Shown one piece after another: positions 31,292-62,924 of a DNA stretch of 64,000 nucleotides. Every line of letters begins with the position of its first letter. Position 1 is the stretch's first letter. Origin of the DNA: Candidatus Roseilinea mizusawaensis (GTDB lineage: Bacteria; Chloroflexota; Anaerolineae; J036; Brachytrichaceae); NCBI GenBank assembly GCA_016841965.1, contig JAEANN010000044.1, positions 62,001 to 126,000 on the forward strand. The letters are read 5' to 3'. A model generated the notes under the pieces. It ran no database searches and was not told where the DNA came from. It saw nothing but the letters and a program-made list of their open reading frames with translations. The position numbers and the translations under genes are program-made.

Positions 31292-32656
31292 TCAACCGAT
31301 CTTTCTGGCGATCTCGGCCAGCAGGCGCTGGCGAGTCTCTTCGAGTGGGATGCGCTCGATGACCGGCGCGAAGAAGCCTTCCACAATCAGCCGGCGCGCT
31401 TCGGCTTCAGGCACGCCGCGTGAGCGCAGATAAAACATCGGCTCTTCCTCCAGCCGGCCTACCGTCGAGCCATGCGTGCAGCGCACATCATCGGCTTCGA
31501 TCTCCAGGCCGGGGATCGAGTCGGCGCGCGACTTGCTGGACAATTGCAGGTTGCGGTTGGCCTGGTAGGCGTCGGTCTTTTGCGCGCCGGGGAAGACGCG
31601 GATATTGCCGCGCCACACCGTGCGCGCTTCGTCGCGCAGCGCGTTTTTGTACAGTAGGTCGCTCTTGCAGGCCGGGGCAATGTGGTTTTGCTGTGTGTCG
31701 TAGTGCAGTTGCTGCCGGCTGTCGGCGAAGAACACACCGGACAACAGGGCAGTGGCTCGCTCGCCCAACAAATCGGCTTCGATGGCCGACTTGGTGTATC
31801 GTGAGCCAACGCCGCCGGCCACCCAGTGCAATGTTGCGCCTTCATGAAGATGGGCGCGCTCATTGGTGAAGTTCCACACGCCAGGCCCCCAGTCCTGAAT
31901 GCTCACGTAGTCCAGTTGTGCATTCTTGCCGACGATGATCTCGACTGCCCCGTTGTAGAACGTTTGAGTTGGGGCTGATCCTTTGGCCGGCGCTGCCGAA
32001 GCAAATTCCTCGATCAGTGTGGCCTGCGCACCTTCATCCAGCACGATCAACGTGTGGTTGAAGCCGGCGCGCTGGCCGGCTGTCATCCACGTTGCCGCGC
32101 GCAGCGGTTGCTCGATGCGTACACCCTTGGGCACATACAACACCACGCCGCCGCGCATAAAAACGCCGTGCAGGGCGGCAAAGTAGGCGTCGCTTAGTCT
32201 GACGCATTCGGTCATCAGATGTTGCTCCAGCCAGTCGGTGTGTGCATGGCTGGCCGAATGCAAGTCCTGGAAGATCACACCCTGCTCGCGCAGGCCGGCA
32301 TCTAGACGCGAAACCACCGGCGCGCCATCCACATGCGCCACAACGCCCGGCGCGTCGGCATTTAGAAACGGTTCTAGGAAGCGATGGGTGTCTGCGTCTT
32401 CACCTGCCGAAGGCGCAGCGGGTAGTTGGATACTCGCCAGAACTTGGTCGAGTTTGAAGAGAGACAGATCAACGCGCCGCCACAGCTCGTCGGTGCGCTG
32501 TGGGGCCGGCGTGTCGCGGAAGACGCGCAACGCTTCCAGCCGGCGCGCTGCCAGCCAGGCCGGGTCGTCGGCGGCGCTCGCGTATGCCTCCACAAACTCG
32601 CGCGTCAGCTCCCCGCTTTTCACCAGCGGCGCGGGTTTCAAAGTCACAACAGCCAT
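31292..32656 (-). CDS. sufD: Fe-S cluster assembly protein SufD
   Basis: 454-residue scaffold subunit that pairs with SufB in the SufBCD complex building iron-sulfur clusters. The central beta-helix region shows VLYVPKGVRIEQPL and DYVSIQDWGPGVWNFTNERA. The C-terminus has VRCTHGSTVGRLEEEPMFYLRSRG, the SufD/SufB ending with the conserved His and the short RSRG(I/V) motif. The ATG overlaps the sufB stop by one base (TAATG), so translation is coupled. Last gene of the sufC-sufB-sufD operon. Confidence 0.93.
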   Translation of the reverse strand: MAVVTLKPAPLVKSGELTREFVEAYASAADDPAWLAARRLEALRVFRDTPAPQRTDELWRRVDLSLFKLDQVLASIQLPAAPSAGEDADTHRFLEPFLNADAPGVVAHVDGAPVVSRLDAGLREQGVIFQDLHSASHAHTDWLEQHLMTECVRLSDAYFAALHGVFMRGGVVLYVPKGVRIEQPLRAATWMTAGQRAGFNHTLIVLDEGAQATLIEEFASAAPAKGSAPTQTFYNGAVEIIVGKNAQLDYVSIQDWGPGVWNFTNERAHLHEGATLHWVAGGVGSRYTKSAIEADLLGERATALLSGVFFADSRQQLHYDTQQNHIAPACKSDLLYKNALRDEARTVWRGNIRVFPGAQKTDAYQANRNLQLSSKSRADSIPGLEIEADDVRCTHGSTVGRLEEEPMFYLRSRGVPEAEARRLIVEGFFAPVIERIPLEETRQRLLAEIARKIG

Positions 32657-35292
32657 TAGCCGACCGTCCCTTCCATCTGCAATGCAATCAGCCGGTTCAT
32701 CTCTACGGCGTATTCCATCGGCAGTTCCTTGACCAGCGGCTCGATAAAGCCGGATACAACCATGGTCGAGGCTTCCTCTTCGGTCAGGCCCCGGCTCATG
32801 GCGTAGAAGAGCTGTTCCTCGCCGATCTTGCTCACCGAAGCCTCGTGGCCGATGGTTACGTCGTCGTTGTCCACTTCAATGTATGGATAGGTGTCGCTGC
32901 GGCTGTGCTCATCCAGAATGAGCGCGTCGCACACCACGTTGCTGCGGCTGCCGGTCGCGTCCTTGTACACCTTCAGCAGGCCGCGATAGCTGGCGCGACC
33001 ACCGTCTTTGCTGATCGACTTGCTGACGATCTTCGAGGTGGTGTTGGGCGCGGCGTGAACGACCTTGCCGCCGGCGTCCTGATGCTGACCCTTGCCGGCG
33101 AAGGCAATCGACAGGATCTCGCCGTGCGCGCCGGGACCCATCAGATACACCGCCGGATACTTCATCGTCAGCTTGGAGTTGTGGACGATGAAGCCCTGTG
33201 AGACAAAGTTGCCGGTGTCCTCCACTTCGATGTCCCAGGTTGGCACAGCTTCTGCTGACGGCTCTGAGACCATCACATCTACGATCTCCACACTTGCGGG
33301 CAGTTCGATCTGTGAACGCCCGACGGCCCGGTGATGGCGCAACTGGGCCGGCTTTGCCTGTTGAGCTTCCTCGCGCAGTTGTGGGCTGACGCGGCTTACC
33401 AGGCGTTCATCGAGTGGGAAGCTCAGCCGGTACGCGCCATGCGCGGTGCACTCGATGCCCTGAATGGTTACTGTGCGCGGTTGATCAAACTCGGTGTACA
33501 GGCGAGAGGTGATGCCCAACGTGACCAGCACTGAGGCCACGTCTTCGAGCAGCGCGCGGTTGACCGACTTCAGCACAAAACGCCGGTCAGCCAGCACGTA
33601 GCCATCCGCGTCCAGATAGCCGGCGATAAACGACAGGCGCTGCGATTCAGGCAGCGACCATACCCATGCCGGCACGCGCTTGTTGCCGGCTCCGTCGGTG
33701 AACCCGTTCAGGGTGAACAACTCTGCCAGTTCTTTGCTGCTCCAGGCCACATGATTGCCGTCGGCGCGCTCGGTGGGTTTTGCGTCAATCAACGCTGCCA
33801 TCGCGCCCATCAGACGCTCGCGGGCGCGGTCATTCCGCGGAGTAGAGAAGCCGACTTTGGCCCAGCGCACGATGCCGTCTGTCTTGCCAGACTGCGCGTC
33901 GATGTTGCCGTCGCCGATCCAGTAGCCAAACAGCCACATGATGTCATCGGTTGTATGCTCGACCGTGCCTAGCCGCGAATCACGCGCGCGCATCATGCTC
34001 AGAGCGGGAGCGTACTGATTCGATGACTCGAAGGCAGTTGTTAACGCCGGCAGTTGTAGCGCGTGCGGCGCACCATAGTCAAGCGACATGCGCGGGATGA
34101 TGGCCTGCTTCAATTGATCTGCGCGCACATAGGCAAGGCGATAGCGCCCCAACTTCTTTGGCGCGCTTGCGTCATAGATATAGGAGTAGAACGGGTGGTT
34201 GGCGGTGACGCGCAGTTTGCGTTCGCCCACAGACACGGTGTGCACCGGCTGATAGCCCGAAAACCGCTTTGCAACCACGCGGCGGAAACATAGCTCGCCG
34301 GTGCGCTCATCATAGGACAACACCCTGTCGCCCACGTTGAGCGATTCGATTGTCTTGAGACCGTCCGGGGTGGTCACCGTCGAGCCTTCTGCCAGGCATC
34401 CCAAATTGCCGTCCACCCATTCCATGGTGGCCCCTTCGTAAGCCACGGCACGCTTGGTCACCAGGTTGTACACGTTGGTTGACCAGTTCTGAATGGTGGT
34501 GTAGCGGCAGCGCCCGCCCTTCTTCACGATGATTTCTACCACCGCGCTGTGCAGCGAGTCGCTGGAGTAGATTGGTGCGGTGCAGCCTTCCACGTAATGC
34601 ACGTATGCGCCCTCGTCCACGATGATGAGGGTGCGCTCGAACTGTCCTACGTTCTTAGCATTGATGCGGAAGTAGGCTTGCAGCGGCAGGTCGATCTTGA
34701 CGCCCGGCGGCACATAGATGAACGACCCGCCCGACCACACCGCACTGTTGAGCGCGGCAAACTTGTTGTCGGTGTAGGGAATCACCGTGCCAAAGTGCTC
34801 GCGGAACAATTCGGGATGCTCGCGCAACGCCGAGTCGGTGTCGAGGAATATCACGCCCTTGTCCGCCAGCTCTTTGGCCAGATTGTGGTAAATGACTTCC
34901 GACTCGTACTGCGCACCGACGCCGGCCAGATACTTCTTCTCGGCTTCTGGAATACCCAGCCGGTCGTAGGTGTTCTTGATCTCAGGCGGTAGCTCCTCCC
35001 ATGACTCGGCCTGCTCCTCGGTTGGCTTGATGTAATAGTAGATATCGTCGAACTGGATGTCCTTGAGTGCCGGCCCGCCCCAGTTCGGCATTGGCTTGGC
35101 TTGGAAGGCAGCCAGCGCGCGCAGCCGGAAATCTGTCATCCACTGCGGCTCGCCCTTGATGCGTGAGATTTGCGTCACAACATCGGCATCCAGACCTTTG
35201 CGGCTCTTGAATGTGTAGTTTTCGGCCTCATGAAAGCCGTACTTCTCTGCGTAACTCTCATTGACCTCAACTTGAGTCTTGGTTTCAGCCAT
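32656..35292 (-). CDS. sufB: Fe-S cluster assembly protein SufB with an in-frame intein
   Basis: 878-residue precursor. After removal of residues 299-705 the exteins give a 471-residue SufB, the normal size. Extein landmarks are YVPPGVKIDLPLQ, YTTIQNWSTNVYNL, EWVDGNLG at the splice site, SKLTMKYPAVYL after it, and the C-terminal GHEASVSKIGEEQLFYAMSRG. SufB is the scaffold on which clusters form with SufC (ATPase) and SufD. The ATG at 35292 follows AGGTAAG. The intein splits a highly conserved core block, so splicing is needed for a functional protein. Confidence 0.95.
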   Translation of the reverse strand: MAETKTQVEVNESYAEKYGFHEAENYTFKSRKGLDADVVTQISRIKGEPQWMTDFRLRALAAFQAKPMPNWGGPALKDIQFDDIYYYIKPTEEQAESWEELPPEIKNTYDRLGIPEAEKKYLAGVGAQYESEVIYHNLAKELADKGVIFLDTDSALREHPELFREHFGTVIPYTDNKFAALNSAVWSGGSFIYVPPGVKIDLPLQAYFRINAKNVGQFERTLIIVDEGAYVHYVEGCTAPIYSSDSLHSAVVEIIVKKGGRCRYTTIQNWSTNVYNLVTKRAVAYEGATMEWVDGNLGCLAEGSTVTTPDGLKTIESLNVGDRVLSYDERTGELCFRRVVAKRFSGYQPVHTVSVGERKLRVTANHPFYSYIYDASAPKKLGRYRLAYVRADQLKQAIIPRMSLDYGAPHALQLPALTTAFESSNQYAPALSMMRARDSRLGTVEHTTDDIMWLFGYWIGDGNIDAQSGKTDGIVRWAKVGFSTPRNDRARERLMGAMAALIDAKPTERADGNHVAWSSKELAELFTLNGFTDGAGNKRVPAWVWSLPESQRLSFIAGYLDADGYVLADRRFVLKSVNRALLEDVASVLVTLGITSRLYTEFDQPRTVTIQGIECTAHGAYRLSFPLDERLVSRVSPQLREEAQQAKPAQLRHHRAVGRSQIELPASVEIVDVMVSEPSAEAVPTWDIEVEDTGNFVSQGFIVHNSKLTMKYPAVYLMGPGAHGEILSIAFAGKGQHQDAGGKVVHAAPNTTSKIVSKSISKDGGRASYRGLLKVYKDATGSRSNVVCDALILDEHSRSDTYPYIEVDNDDVTIGHEASVSKIGEEQLFYAMSRGLTEEEASTMVVSGFIEPLVKELPMEYAVEMNRLIALQMEGTVG
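33178..34398 (-). other. SufB intein with LAGLIDADG (DOD) homing endonuclease
   Basis: 407-residue protein-splicing element, precursor residues 299-705. It starts with Cys299 (CLAEGSTVTTPDG, block A). TANHPFYSY is block B with its TxxH. The two dodecapeptides LFGYWIGDGN and FIAGYLDADGY mark a DOD homing endonuclease with both acidic residues present. It ends with block F/G (NFVSQGFIVHN), with the His-Asn pair and Ser706 as +1 nucleophile. All splicing residues appear intact, so self-excision is expected. The intact endonuclease suggests a fairly recent arrival or continued selection. Confidence 0.93.
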
Positions 35293-38853: not shown

Positions 38854-39723
38854 ATGAACGAAGCACCGATTGTCCTCGGCGTGATCGGCGGAAGCGGTCT
38901 GTATGCGATGCCGGGGCTGACCGATATCACCGAGCAGCGCATCCACACCCCGTTTGGCGATCCCTCAGATGCTGTTGTGATCGGTTCTTTGCGTGGCAAG
39001 CGCATTGCCTTTCTGCCGCGCCACGGCCGGGGCCATCGTTTCAGCCCCGGCGAAGTGCCCTATCGCGCCAACATGTACGCCATGAAGGCGCTTGGCGTCA
39101 GGCACATAGTCAGCGTCAGCGCCTGCGGCAGTTTGCGCGAACACATGAAGCCGCGCGACGTGGTTGTGCCTGATCAACTGGTGGACTTCACGCGCGGCAA
39201 GCGGGCGCTGTCTTTTTTTGAGGAAGGCTGGGTGGCGCATGCCTCGGTTGCCGACCCGTATGCAAAGTCGCTCAGCGCGGCGCTGGTGCAAGCGGTGCGC
39301 GATGCCGGCGGCACCGCCCATGCCGGCGGCACATTCATCACCATCGAAGGCCCGCGCTTTAGCACCAAGGCAGAAAGCAACATGTTCCGCGCTTGGGGGT
39401 GCGACATCATCGGCATGACTGCCTCGCCCGAAGCGGCGCTGGCCCGCGAAGCGGAGATCGATCTGGCCGTCATGGCGCATGTCACCGACTACGATGTGTG
39501 GCACGACTCCGAAGAGCCGGTCACCACCGAAATCGTCATCGAGCGGTTGAATGCGAATCTGACGCTGGCGCAACAAGCTATCGCCAACCTGGTCACCGTA
39601 GTCGAAACGTTGCCCCACGAGACTGAGGGGTGTATGCGCTTTGCGACCATCAGCGCCGCCGAGCGCATCCCGCAAGCGGCCCGCGAGCGCCTCTCGTTGC
39701 TGATGGGCAAATATCTGTCCTAG
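38854..39723 (+). CDS. mtnP: S-methyl-5'-thioadenosine phosphorylase
   Basis: 289-residue purine-nucleoside-phosphorylase-fold enzyme splitting methylthioadenosine to adenine and methylthioribose-1-phosphate in methionine salvage. GVIGGSGLYAMPGL, PRHGRGHRFSPGEVPYRANM and TIEGPRFSTKAESNMFR are diagnostic of MTAP. The ATG follows GGGAGGT. It sits 33 bp after the thioredoxin gene. No mtnA/mtnK follows. An adenosine-type amidohydrolase fused to CYTH lies 12 kb away and may act on related nucleosides. Confidence 0.94.
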   Translation: MNEAPIVLGVIGGSGLYAMPGLTDITEQRIHTPFGDPSDAVVIGSLRGKRIAFLPRHGRGHRFSPGEVPYRANMYAMKALGVRHIVSVSACGSLREHMKPRDVVVPDQLVDFTRGKRALSFFEEGWVAHASVADPYAKSLSAALVQAVRDAGGTAHAGGTFITIEGPRFSTKAESNMFRAWGCDIIGMTASPEAALAREAEIDLAVMAHVTDYDVWHDSEEPVTTEIVIERLNANLTLAQQAIANLVTVVETLPHETEGCMRFATISAAERIPQAARERLSLLMGKYLS

Positions 39724-51619: not shown

Positions 51620-53614
51620 CTACCTCTCGGCAATTTCTACGTATTCTTCGCGCACCAGCGCGGCATCTGGCACGCTGAAATGGCCGAGCAGTTTGCCGAT
51701 GATATCGGCTTTGCGCGCGGCGTCTTTGGGACTCCAGGTGCGGCTCTTGATTTCCAGGAAATAGCCGTTGCGTTTTGGCTCGATCATCCGGTCGATGTTG
51801 ATGAACAGATTCTCGTCCTCGAAGAGGACCTCCCAGCGCAGACGGTCTTTTTCGATGATGACTTCGCGCGAGGGCTGAAAGTATTCACGGTAGAAGCGCA
51901 GGCTGCGATCGGCCGGCGCGATGAAGCGCGAGCGCGACATGAGCACCGAATGGGCGAACTCGCGCTCTTTCTGCGGGCCGATCAGCGTCAGCCGATAGCG
52001 GCTGCTGACGGTGTGACCCTGCTCATCGACGCGGTCATCCTCTCGATAGCGCAGGCGCGACTCATCATTGTCGAAGAAGAAGTAAGTGTCGTACTGGCGG
52101 TAATGCACATGCCGGACGACAGTGAGTGGGCTGGCCTCGCCGGCGCCCTGAATCGCGGCGATGACAGGGTGTGCGTCGTCGAGATGAGCCTTGACCTGAA
52201 TCTCGAACGACTCTTCTTGTTGCACGCCGCCGATGGCGGCCAGCTTGCTCAACACATCGTTTTCCCGCTCGATGAGGAAGGCGTCAATTTGCACGGCCAG
52301 CACGTTAGCGCGCCGGCGAATGTCGTCCTCGTCCAAAGTGAGTAACACGCGATTGCGCATCAGCGGCCGGCCATTGACCCACACATCGCGTACGTCGGTC
52401 GATTTGCCGGCATACACGATCTGGGTGTAGACGCTGGTCGGGTCATGCGAGAGTAGGGCGTAGTGTGGCGTATTGTGCAGCGTTTGCAGGTCGAGCACGA
52501 TGACATCGGCGCGTTTGCCCGGCGCCAGTGAGCCGGTGAGATGGCCGATGTGCAACGCGCGCGCGCCTTCGATGGTCGCCATAGCCAACGCCGTGCGCGC
52601 CGGCACGGCGACGGGGTCGCGCGTGCTGCCTTTGGCCAGCAGCGCCGCCAACCGCATCTCTTCGAAGTGATCGAGGTCATTGTTGCTGGCCGGGCCATCG
52701 GTGCCGATGCCGATGTGCAGGCCGGCTGCCAGCATCTGGGTAACGTTAGCGATACCGCTGGCCAGCTTGAGATTGGCGGTCGGGTTGTGGGCTACGGTGG
52801 CGCCGGCGCGCTTGAGGGTGCGCATCTCGCCCTGATCGATGGCAGTGCAGTGGGCGGCGATCACTTTGGCCTCCAGCACGCCGTTCTTCTTGATCCATGC
52901 CACCACCGGCATGCCGTTTTCGCGCCGGCAGTCCTCCACCTCCTGGAATGTCTCGCTGATGTGAATGTGCAGCGGCACGTCGTACTTCACGGCCATCTCG
53001 GCGCAGCGCCGCATGAGCGCCCCGCTGCACGTATATGGCGCATGAGGCGCAACTACTGGCACAATTAGGGGATGTCCTTTCCATTTGCGCACGAAAGCTT
53101 CACAGGCTTCGAGGCTGTCTTCGTAGGACGCCGCGTCGGGGGTGGGGTATTGCATGATGGTCTGCGAGCACAGCGCGCGCAGGCCGGCTTCAGCGATGGT
53201 CTGCGCGATGGTGTCCTCGAAGTAATACATGTCGTTGACGCACGTGACGCCGCTGCGGATCATTTCGGCGCAGGCCAGTTGCGCGCCGAGCGCCACGAAC
53301 TCTGGCGAGACGAAGTGCCGCTCGACCGGCAGCATGTAGCCATATAGCCACACGTCAAGCCGGCGATCGTCGGCCAGGCCGCGCAGCAATGTCATCGGCA
53401 TGTGGGTGTGCGCGTTGATCAGCCCGGGCATGATTACGCACCCGCTGCAATCGATGACCTGATTGGCCTGGTATTGTGCGGAGATCTCGGTGGCCGGCCC
53501 GGCGGCGACAATGGAATCGCCCGCGAGAGCAACAGCGCCGTTTGGATACAGCGCGAAGCTGTCGTCCATTGTTACAACAATACCGTTGGTGAGGAGGGTG
53601 TCTACCTGCTGCAT
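51620..53614 (-). CDS. Amidohydrolase (MTA/SAH deaminase-like) fused to a CYTH domain
   Basis: 664 residues in two parts. Residues ~1-455 are an ATZ/TRZ-type metal-dependent deaminase: metal motif NAHTHMP, HIHISET, the AAHCTAID strand and GIGTDGPASNN with the catalytic Asp. These match 5'-methylthioadenosine/S-adenosylhomocysteine deaminases and chlorohydrolases. Residues ~480-664 form a CYTH-like domain: ESFEIQVKAH in place of the usual E-x-E-x-K, LRYREDD, SRYRLTLIGP and YFLEIKSRTW, the fold of CyaB adenylate cyclases and thiamine-triphosphatases. Start ATG at 53614, 6 nt after TATAAC. CYTH acts on triphosphates, so nucleotide turnover is plausible. Confidence 0.85.
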   Translation of the reverse strand: MQQVDTLLTNGIVVTMDDSFALYPNGAVALAGDSIVAAGPATEISAQYQANQVIDCSGCVIMPGLINAHTHMPMTLLRGLADDRRLDVWLYGYMLPVERHFVSPEFVALGAQLACAEMIRSGVTCVNDMYYFEDTIAQTIAEAGLRALCSQTIMQYPTPDAASYEDSLEACEAFVRKWKGHPLIVPVVAPHAPYTCSGALMRRCAEMAVKYDVPLHIHISETFQEVEDCRRENGMPVVAWIKKNGVLEAKVIAAHCTAIDQGEMRTLKRAGATVAHNPTANLKLASGIANVTQMLAAGLHIGIGTDGPASNNDLDHFEEMRLAALLAKGSTRDPVAVPARTALAMATIEGARALHIGHLTGSLAPGKRADVIVLDLQTLHNTPHYALLSHDPTSVYTQIVYAGKSTDVRDVWVNGRPLMRNRVLLTLDEDDIRRRANVLAVQIDAFLIERENDVLSKLAAIGGVQQEESFEIQVKAHLDDAHPVIAAIQGAGEASPLTVVRHVHYRQYDTYFFFDNDESRLRYREDDRVDEQGHTVSSRYRLTLIGPQKEREFAHSVLMSRSRFIAPADRSLRFYREYFQPSREVIIEKDRLRWEVLFEDENLFINIDRMIEPKRNGYFLEIKSRTWSPKDAARKADIIGKLLGHFSVPDAALVREEYVEIAER

Positions 53615-53789: not shown

Positions 53790-53854
53790 GCAGCCCGGCC
53801 GGACAAAAATCGAGCGCGAGAAAGCAAGATAAAAAAGAGGAAAGAGGCAGCGTG

Positions 53855-54916: not shown

Positions 54917-55675
54917 ATGAGTTCCCCGCGTGACTCGGTCACACCCATGTTGGCAGCCATCTTGCAGGCGACACATCAGCCTGACCAGAGAATCATGCTG
55001 CGCGCCCCCAGTGTGCGCATTGGGCGGGGCGTAACCGGGTCTTATGACATCATTATCCAGCCGGACGATGTGTCTGTATCACGCGAGCACGCTTACCTGG
55101 TGCTGGAAACAAACGTCTGGGTTTTTCACGATACTAGCCGAAATGGAAGCTACGTGAACGGGCAATTGGTGAAAGGGCAGCGGGTGGCGCTTAAGCCGGG
55201 TGACCGCATCCAGATCGGCAAGACTTTCGACTACACGTTCAAGATCATCAGCCCAACCTACGAGATGCAGCTCGGCTCCGAAGCGCCCGGAGACCTAGGG
55301 CAACCGGTGTTGGGGGGGACTGAATTGCCGCCGAGCAACTCTGGCATTTGGATCAGCCCAAGCGCCGCCGTGTGGCGGGATGGGGCTGTGTTGCCGGCCA
55401 TGCTTTCGCGCACGGAGTACCGCCTGCTCAAATATCTGATGCGCCGGCCCGGCGACGTGTGCGACTATGACTCCGTCATCCGTGCCGTGTGGGGAAGTCT
55501 GCGCGAGAAAGACAGCCTGCATGAGTTGATCTATCGCGTGCGGCGCAAGATCGAGCCTGATCCATCCATGCCGCGCTATCTGATCATCCGCGCCGGCATT
55601 GGTGTGGTGTTCTTTCCACAAGGGGTCGACGCCAGCAACAGTTTGCCGGAATCCTCGTCATCTCAGATCGGGTGA
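54917..55675 (+). CDS. FHA domain-winged-helix DNA-binding protein
   Basis: 252 residues. The N-terminal FHA domain (about 27-115) has RIGRG, SREHA and SRNGSYVNG, the residues that bind phosphothreonine. The C-terminal part (about 150-240) is an OmpR-like winged helix (RTEYRLLKYLMRRPGDVCDYDSVIRAVWG ... is split here as TEYRLLKYLM and YRVRRKIEPDP). Likely a transcription factor controlled by a Ser/Thr protein kinase rather than a histidine kinase. No kinase gene is adjacent. The reverse-strand mgtC gene is convergent. Confidence 0.82.
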   Translation: MSSPRDSVTPMLAAILQATHQPDQRIMLRAPSVRIGRGVTGSYDIIIQPDDVSVSREHAYLVLETNVWVFHDTSRNGSYVNGQLVKGQRVALKPGDRIQIGKTFDYTFKIISPTYEMQLGSEAPGDLGQPVLGGTELPPSNSGIWISPSAAVWRDGAVLPAMLSRTEYRLLKYLMRRPGDVCDYDSVIRAVWGSLREKDSLHELIYRVRRKIEPDPSMPRYLIIRAGIGVVFFPQGVDASNSLPESSSSQIG

Positions 55676-61523: not shown

Positions 61524-62924
61524 CTATTCCTGTTCAGGCGTGATCGGCGCGGGATGCTCGCCGAAATCCTGCGGGGTTTTGTGAATCTCTGGCTGTGATA
61601 CAAACGTGCTGACCATGCTGCGCGTATCTGTCACGCCCAGCCAGTGGAACAAATCCGTAAAGCGGCGCTCGAGCAGCGCGCGGATGTGACTGCGATCCAG
61701 CTCGCTCAGCCGCCATATCTGTTCTTTGAATGGCCCGATAGCGCGCCGGCGCGCGCGGTGCAGGAATTGCGCTTCACTGAAGCCGGGCCTGCGCTCGTTT
61801 TCCAATGTCCGGAGTATCCAGTCGCGCATTTCCAGGCGCAAGGCTTCGGGCAGGGCGTCGATAACGATGTTTTGCAGTTGGGTGGCCAGCTTGACTTCTA
61901 GAGCGCCGCTTTGCGCAAACTGCGCGAACATCTCATCCGAGACTGTGCTGGCGCCATGTAGCGAAACGCCGCCCAGCCCGTATTCTTTGCGGGCCGCCTC
62001 GGATAGCTGGCGCAGCAACGCAAAATCGACCTCTGGCGCCAGCACGGTTCCATTGGGCGCCACGACACCGCCGCGCGTTGTGCCGGCCATGACGGCGACT
62101 TTGCACAAACCGGGTTTGTGGTGCAGCGCGCGGGCGCAGCCATCCAGGTAAGCGCGCAACTCGTGAATGTCGCTGTTGCGCTGGCCGGCTGCGCCCACTT
62201 CACCGCCAACTGCCACAACGACTGGGTGTGGCTGGCGCGCGCGGATATAGTCGGTCAACAAGGCGCTCATCTCAGCGTTCAACCGTTGTTGTTCGGCCGG
62301 GATGCTGCGGGTCATGTCTACTAGCGTGGATGTGTCCAGGTCGAAGTTGTAGAAGCCGGCTTGCAGCGACTCGTCGATCAGGCGGCGCAGAGCGCTCAGT
62401 TCTGCGTCCGTGTCTTTCTTGTAGCGCTCGGCCAGCAGTTGAAAGTGATCGCCTTGCAAAAAGATCGGCCCGCGAAAGCCTTCCTTGATCGCGGCGGCAA
62501 GCACCATGCTGGTGTACTCGGCAGGTCGCTGGGCGGTGTCGATCATCTCGTTGCGCGTCAATTCGAACATCAGCGCGCCGGTTCTGCTTTTGATGGCGGC
62601 GCTGAAGGCGGCGCGGGCCGAGTCGTAGACCAACGCGCGCAGGTTGACAGCCGGCACAGCAAACGTAGTGGGGATGCGCTCGAACCCGCGCGCAACGTAT
62701 AGCTCGTGGATAGAAGCCGGCCGGATGCCAAGCGTCTGCGCTGTTTCCCAAATCAGCCAGCGCGCATAGACGCGCGTGTCACCAGCGCCGAACACTGCCT
62801 CGCGCGCGAGGGTGTCGATGTCTCGCGCCCGCAGGATGGCTTCGTCGCGCACCCGCACGCGCCCGGTGTCGACCTCAATCGATTCGCTCGTCTTGTCGAG
62901 CACTGACAGAAGCGTTGCATTCAT
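61524..62924 (-). CDS. Class II fructose/tagatose-bisphosphate aldolase-like protein
   Basis: 466 residues. FAVPAVNLRALVYDSARAAF opens a class II aldolase barrel, FLQGDHFQLL holds the expected Asp-His pair, AVGGEVGAAG lines up with the family's second metal region, and GGVSLHGAST carries the later metal His. An extra N-terminal ~85 residues and a C-terminal ~100 residues go beyond ordinary FBA. The sugar is unknown. The ATG at 62924 is preceded by AGGAGGTG, which decides it against the longer frame to 62996. It follows a mannitol dehydrogenase-family gene, suggesting sugar-alcohol or sugar-phosphate breakdown. Confidence 0.78.
   Translation of the reverse strand: MNATLLSVLDKTSESIEVDTGRVRVRDEAILRARDIDTLAREAVFGAGDTRVYARWLIWETAQTLGIRPASIHELYVARGFERIPTTFAVPAVNLRALVYDSARAAFSAAIKSRTGALMFELTRNEMIDTAQRPAEYTSMVLAAAIKEGFRGPIFLQGDHFQLLAERYKKDTDAELSALRRLIDESLQAGFYNFDLDTSTLVDMTRSIPAEQQRLNAEMSALLTDYIRARQPHPVVVAVGGEVGAAGQRNSDIHELRAYLDGCARALHHKPGLCKVAVMAGTTRGGVVAPNGTVLAPEVDFALLRQLSEAARKEYGLGGVSLHGASTVSDEMFAQFAQSGALEVKLATQLQNIVIDALPEALRLEMRDWILRTLENERRPGFSEAQFLHRARRRAIGPFKEQIWRLSELDRSHIRALLERRFTDLFHWLGVTDTRSMVSTFVSQPEIHKTPQDFGEHPAPITPEQE

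Follow-up and report, generated by a model that had tools for sequence, protein, structure and literature searches.

A deaminase joined to a CYTH domain with altered metal motifs in Chloroflexota

The CYTH or triphosphate-tunnel (TTM) phosphatases, such as SaTTM, YgiF and AtTTM3, stand alone or are joined to a CHAD domain and carry the motifs ExExK and ExE, the phosphate-binding motifs RxR and KxR and the Lys of a TLK motif. In SaTTM, metal 1 is bound by the second Glu of ExExK (E7) and the first of ExE (E135), and the remaining two, E5 and E137, take part in binding metal 2 (PMC8233210); in YgiF, metal 2 is held by both Glu of ExExK (E4 and E6) and the second of ExE (E162) and metal 1 by the first of ExE (E160), and activity is impaired by E6A or E160A (PMC4641920). 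In a published network of 38,246 CYTH sequences the partners found in multidomain clusters were CHAD and phosphoribulokinase. Plant TTM1 and TTM2 (cluster 7 of the network, from plants and Amoebozoa) have a kinase domain of the phosphoribulokinase/uridine-kinase type N-terminal to a TTM domain without ExExK and ExE, yet have been reported to cleave pyrophosphate. The polyphosphate polymerase Vtc4p, which carries a VTC domain and works in a membrane complex, keeps metal site 1 only, has basic residues at the TTM acidic patch and makes polyphosphate (PMC4641920). The class IV adenylate cyclase CyaB is characterised by the published signatures HFxxxxExExK and a small residue in place of the first RxR Arg, and the Med18/Med20 tunnel has been reported to have lost activity.

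Here we describe a protein encoded in a 64,000-nucleotide stretch of the Candidatus Roseilinea mizusawaensis genome (the window; positions 62001–126000 of contig JAEANN010000044.1). The genome is 3.86 Mb in size and is most closely related to Anaerolineae/Thermoflexales (phylum Chloroflexota). The protein has two domains, an MTA/SAH-type adenosine deaminase and a CYTH/triphosphate-tunnel domain. A preliminary description of the window had read it as a nucleoside-type deaminase joined to a CYTH-like domain, and the reading frame, the PF01979 and NCBIfam matches and a structural model of the CYTH half all agree with this. No paper describing an amidohydrolase–CYTH fusion was found in our literature search (the 2002 family-defining paper lay outside its scope); the architecture may already appear in automated databases.

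The fusion gene and its deaminase half

The gene and its parts are as follows.

51620–53614, minus strand: deaminase–CYTH fusion gene, 664 residues and a stop codon, ATG at 53614
52295–53614, minus strand: N-terminal amidohydrolase domain of the MTA/SAH/5'-deoxyadenosine deaminase type, residues 1–440, from Pfam, NCBIfam and structure matches
52229–52330, minus strand: helical linker, residues ~429–462
51623–52210, minus strand: C-terminal CYTH/triphosphate-tunnel domain, residues ~469–664, from Pfam matches in relatives, profile comparison and the model

Relatives align over the full length at 46–92% identity and do so from the Met encoded at 53614. An alternative TTG start at 53827 is possible, although the frames of most relatives fall short of that position. 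An origin of the fusion by chance or by frameshift is ruled out by 69 full-length relatives. Within the linker E451 and K457 are invariant and F446 and R450 nearly so.

The N-terminal half is matched by the Pfam amidohydrolase family PF01979 (E 1.2e-69) and by NCBIfam deaminase models with E values down to 2.8e-140. The best of these, NF006549, scores 467.9 bits and misses its equivalog cut-off of 540, and the fusion likewise falls under the cut-offs of the MTA/SAH and 5'-deoxyadenosine deaminase models. The half resembles the described MTA/SAH (5'-deoxyadenosine) deaminases, among them 4f0r/4f0s (C. violaceum), 4gbd (P. aeruginosa) and TM0936, over its entire length; identity to 4f0r is 40% (E 6e-97, TM 0.96), and 4gbd, solved with methylthio-coformycin, superposes with a TM of 0.97. 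The residues expected of such an enzyme were located as below.

53402–53410, minus strand: metal motif H69-x-H71, invariant
53321–53350, minus strand: W89...E98, invariant
52952–52963, minus strand: H218 and catalytic E221 (H-x-x-E), invariant
52850–52852, minus strand: H255, invariant
52697–52699, minus strand: metal ligand D306, invariant

All of the metal ligands (HxH, H, H and D) and the catalytic Glu are thus present and invariant among the 69 relatives. W89 and E98 we take to be the counterparts of the residues that contact adenine and ribose in TM0936-type deaminases. Since these two, like the metal ligands and the catalytic Glu, never vary, the deaminase is very probably active. The same genome also encodes MTA phosphorylase and SAH hydrolase, so 5'-deoxyadenosine or adenosine may be the likelier substrate in the cell. 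What sets the protein apart from the described deaminases is the addition of approximately 220 C-terminal residues, comprising the linker and the CYTH domain.

A CYTH domain with a replaced metal site

The C-terminal part of the window protein itself scores under the Pfam CYTH threshold, being too diverged. PF01928 was matched by 16 of 36 relatives, with a best E value of 1.9e-8, and several exceed the curated cut-off (31.1, 30.4 and 29.0 bits against 23.2). Profile–profile comparison of the family with canonical Chloroflexota CYTH proteins gave 94.6% (E 6.7e-8). An AlphaFold model of this half, built with 59 sequences, is a CYTH tunnel (pLDDT 93.3, pTM 0.89) in which the eight-stranded beta-tunnel with plug helix that defines the CYTH-like superfamily is predicted. 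The model matches the structures of SaTTM, an archaeal CYTH protein and class IV cyclases with Z scores of 16–18 and an rmsd of 2.0–2.6 over 161–167 residues (Z 16–17 for the CyaB type); Med18/Med20 also match, with Z about 12–14. By sequence and by structure, then, the C-terminal half belongs to the CYTH fold superfamily, and the outcome that would have overturned the preliminary description, a C-terminal part with some other fold, was not seen.

The motifs of the domain are listed here.

52190–52204, minus strand: E471-x-Q473-x-K475 in place of ExExK, in 69 of 69 relatives
52043–52051, minus strand: R522-x-R524, phosphate-binding arginines, invariant
51836–51850, minus strand: K589-x-R591-x-R593, phosphate-binding, invariant
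51746–51754, minus strand: E621-x-K623 in place of the acidic ExE of beta-8, in 69 of 69 relatives

The first motif had been read in the preliminary description as E-I-Q-V-K, with the suggestion that metal binding may differ. That reading was correct and the suggestion is supported, the change being larger than was claimed in that ExE has also become ExK throughout the family. In the profile alignment the second Glu of each motif is the one that has changed, to Q473 in ExExK and to K623 in ExE, and where canonical proteins have the TLK Lys the family has a variable, mostly hydrophobic residue. A third position of the acidic patch may be Arg (R563), in a gapped stretch of the alignment. In common with SaTTM, YgiF and AtTTM3 the fusion has the tunnel fold, RxR, KxR, the beta-8 Glu of metal site 1 and the plug-helix region; it differs from them in ExQxK, ExK, the missing TLK Lys and the position of its CYTH domain behind a deaminase.

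In all, 27 residues of the tunnel domain are invariant in the 69 relatives. Because E471, the metal-1 Glu E621, RxR, KxR(xR), DxY and a beta-7 Asp are among them, as is the phosphate-binding K475, the domain is under selection rather than decaying. In this pattern of conservation the catalytic, water-activating metal-2 site has been dismantled with the phosphate-binding side preserved, and the replacement is itself under selection. Plant TTM1 and TTM2 offer a parallel, likewise having a metabolic enzyme domain N-terminal to a TTM domain without the canonical metal motifs, but there the motifs have been lost, whereas the fusion carries fixed residues in their stead and has no W/YxRxR motif.

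Distribution and gene neighbourhood

The preliminary description had proposed a search for the same fusion across genomes. When 400 Chloroflexota genomes were searched it was found in 89: the source genome, all six further members of its family that were sampled, 43 of 48 genomes from other families of its class, and 39 genomes elsewhere, spread over five families. The uninterrupted open frames are all at least 657 residues long, and two shorter ones are apparently genes split over contigs. Contig-split genes aside, the two domains are fused in 89 of 89 genomes, and neither a free-standing CYTH domain nor an unfused deaminase of the fusion clade was found in the 400. A search with the deaminase half separates a distinct clade, since all matches of at least 49% identity to the window protein are fusions or contig-split pieces of them and everything unfused lies at or below 43%. 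The divergence of the two halves is correlated (r 0.92, a value reached by 0 of 2000 permutations) and the tree of the fusion follows taxonomic families. One old fusion, vertically inherited, is the simplest account of these data.

Among the best 80 of 557 in the genome scan, one labelled Calditrichia is nested among Chloroflexota in the tree, and the viral contigs and plasmids searched held no relative. One genome bin (G297) has two full-length copies on different contigs (L006 and G297:C53), reflecting either a strain mixture or a duplication. Those long CYTH-containing frames that were examined elsewhere in Chloroflexota read as CYTH-CHAD proteins or chance frames. The source genome's other CYTH protein (L191 1206–2804, minus strand, contig C45) reads as CYTH-CHAD and has at its start E-W-Q-F-E, a degenerate counterpart of ExExK.

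Among approximately 120 fusion loci no conserved operon partner specific to the fusion was found; the genes that recur beside it have housekeeping roles and differ between lineages. Named from reading their sequences, these include CinA, upstream on the same strand at 29 loci, CoaE, downstream at 17, and a glycogen synthase-like protein at eight. A gene for an FHA domain with a response-regulator-type winged-helix DNA-binding domain (54917–55675, plus strand) adjoins the fusion in several close relatives. The window also holds a gene to which the preliminary description had possibly linked the fusion:

38854–39723, plus strand: S-methyl-5'-thioadenosine phosphorylase (TIGR01694, 295 bits, over the cut-off of 274.85)

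This link found no support. The gene lies 12 kb from the fusion, is not among the recurrent neighbours and is common in the phylum, being present in 313 of the 400 genomes (83 of 89 carriers of the fusion and 230 of 311 others) and missing from six carriers. Elsewhere in the window, a SufB gene of 878 residues (32656–35292, minus strand) has two SufB stretches flanking an intein-like insert (approximately residues 302–658), which gives weak matches to intein-bearing models.

Possible roles of the CYTH half

We tentatively favour a reading in which the CYTH half regulates the deaminase by binding, but not hydrolysing, a ligand that bears a tri- or polyphosphate. The N-terminal half would act on 5'-modified adenosines (5'-deoxyadenosine, adenosine, MTA or SAH) as a conventional metal-dependent deaminase. 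With RxR, KxRxR and the metal-1 glutamate the tunnel would hold its ligand, be it tripolyphosphate, polyphosphate, ATP or some other nucleotide, and would leave it intact because Gln and Lys replace the metal-2 site. Formation of SAM and formation of adenosylcobalamin both involve tripolyphosphate, which is therefore a plausible candidate ligand. Binding might be relayed to the deaminase via the conserved helical linker, as the fusion itself leads us to guess, and deamination could in this way follow the cell's energy or phosphate status or its SAM/radical-SAM flux. Precedents for a tunnel of this kind are provided by Med18/Med20 and by the joining of a kinase to a motif-less tunnel in plant TTM1 and TTM2, although the pyrophosphate cleavage reported for the latter makes a single-metal or metal-free activity conceivable as well.

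The main alternative, possible if doubtful, is that the CYTH half is still an enzyme with changed chemistry, using the site-1 metal with Lys and Gln in place of site 2. As a pyrophosphatase, nucleotide phosphatase or phosphate transferase it would then act on some ligand that is related to the substrate of the deaminase. The invariant residues, which include the site-1 Glu, RxR and KxR, would fit a catalyst equally well, and both the plant enzymes and Vtc4p are reported to act with altered tunnels. Against this, canonical TTMs are impaired when their metal-2 glutamates are mutated (PMC4641920), and the third position of the putative basic patch, R563, depends on a gapped alignment. The parallel with Vtc4p extends to the retained metal-site-1 Glu and the largely replaced acidic patch; however, the fusion keeps the hallmark first Glu, and has a soluble deaminase as partner and no membrane complex. 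Among 36 members searched, no match to the Pfam VTC family was listed at an E value of 1 or better. The 50 structure matches listed for the CYTH model include no VTC structure, which does not speak against a relationship.

That the domain serves only structure or oligomerisation, as a relic tunnel whose charged residues hold the fold or an interface, seems unlikely. Med18/Med20 show that the fold can be purely structural, and the constant fusion of the two domains and a confident model of the full-length protein (pTM 0.85) would be consistent with such a role, but many of the invariant positions are phosphate-binding residues of active relatives that would be dispensable in a scaffold.

A bolder form of the catalytic alternative, which we consider improbable, is that the CYTH half has a new kind of catalytic tunnel. 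With one metal and a basic patch of Gln, Arg and Lys, this tunnel would be nearer in mechanism to Vtc4p than to the triphosphatases, and would make or transfer phosphate chains or act on a nucleotide coupled to deamination. If true, the protein would be a bifunctional bacterial enzyme that connects the salvage of SAM by-products with the metabolism of polyphosphate or nucleotides.

An ordinary role as a tripolyphosphatase or a class IV adenylate cyclase, of the kind that the examples in the preliminary description (CyaB and thiamine triphosphatase) suggest, is very improbable despite the correct fold and the retained RxR and KxR, given ExQxK and ExK in all relatives. For a cyclase, moreover, the window protein lacks the HF motif ahead of ExExK, and an invariant Arg (R522) stands where a small residue is expected.

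An unexplored nucleotide or cofactor pathway, as first suggested, is possible. The physiological roles of CYTH proteins are largely unknown, and the deaminase is a third stable partner for them, present across several branches of the Chloroflexota. Its consistently rewritten metal site provides a defined system in which to ask what a non-hydrolysing CYTH tunnel does, and the fusion also bears on whether a phosphate ligand gates nucleoside salvage.
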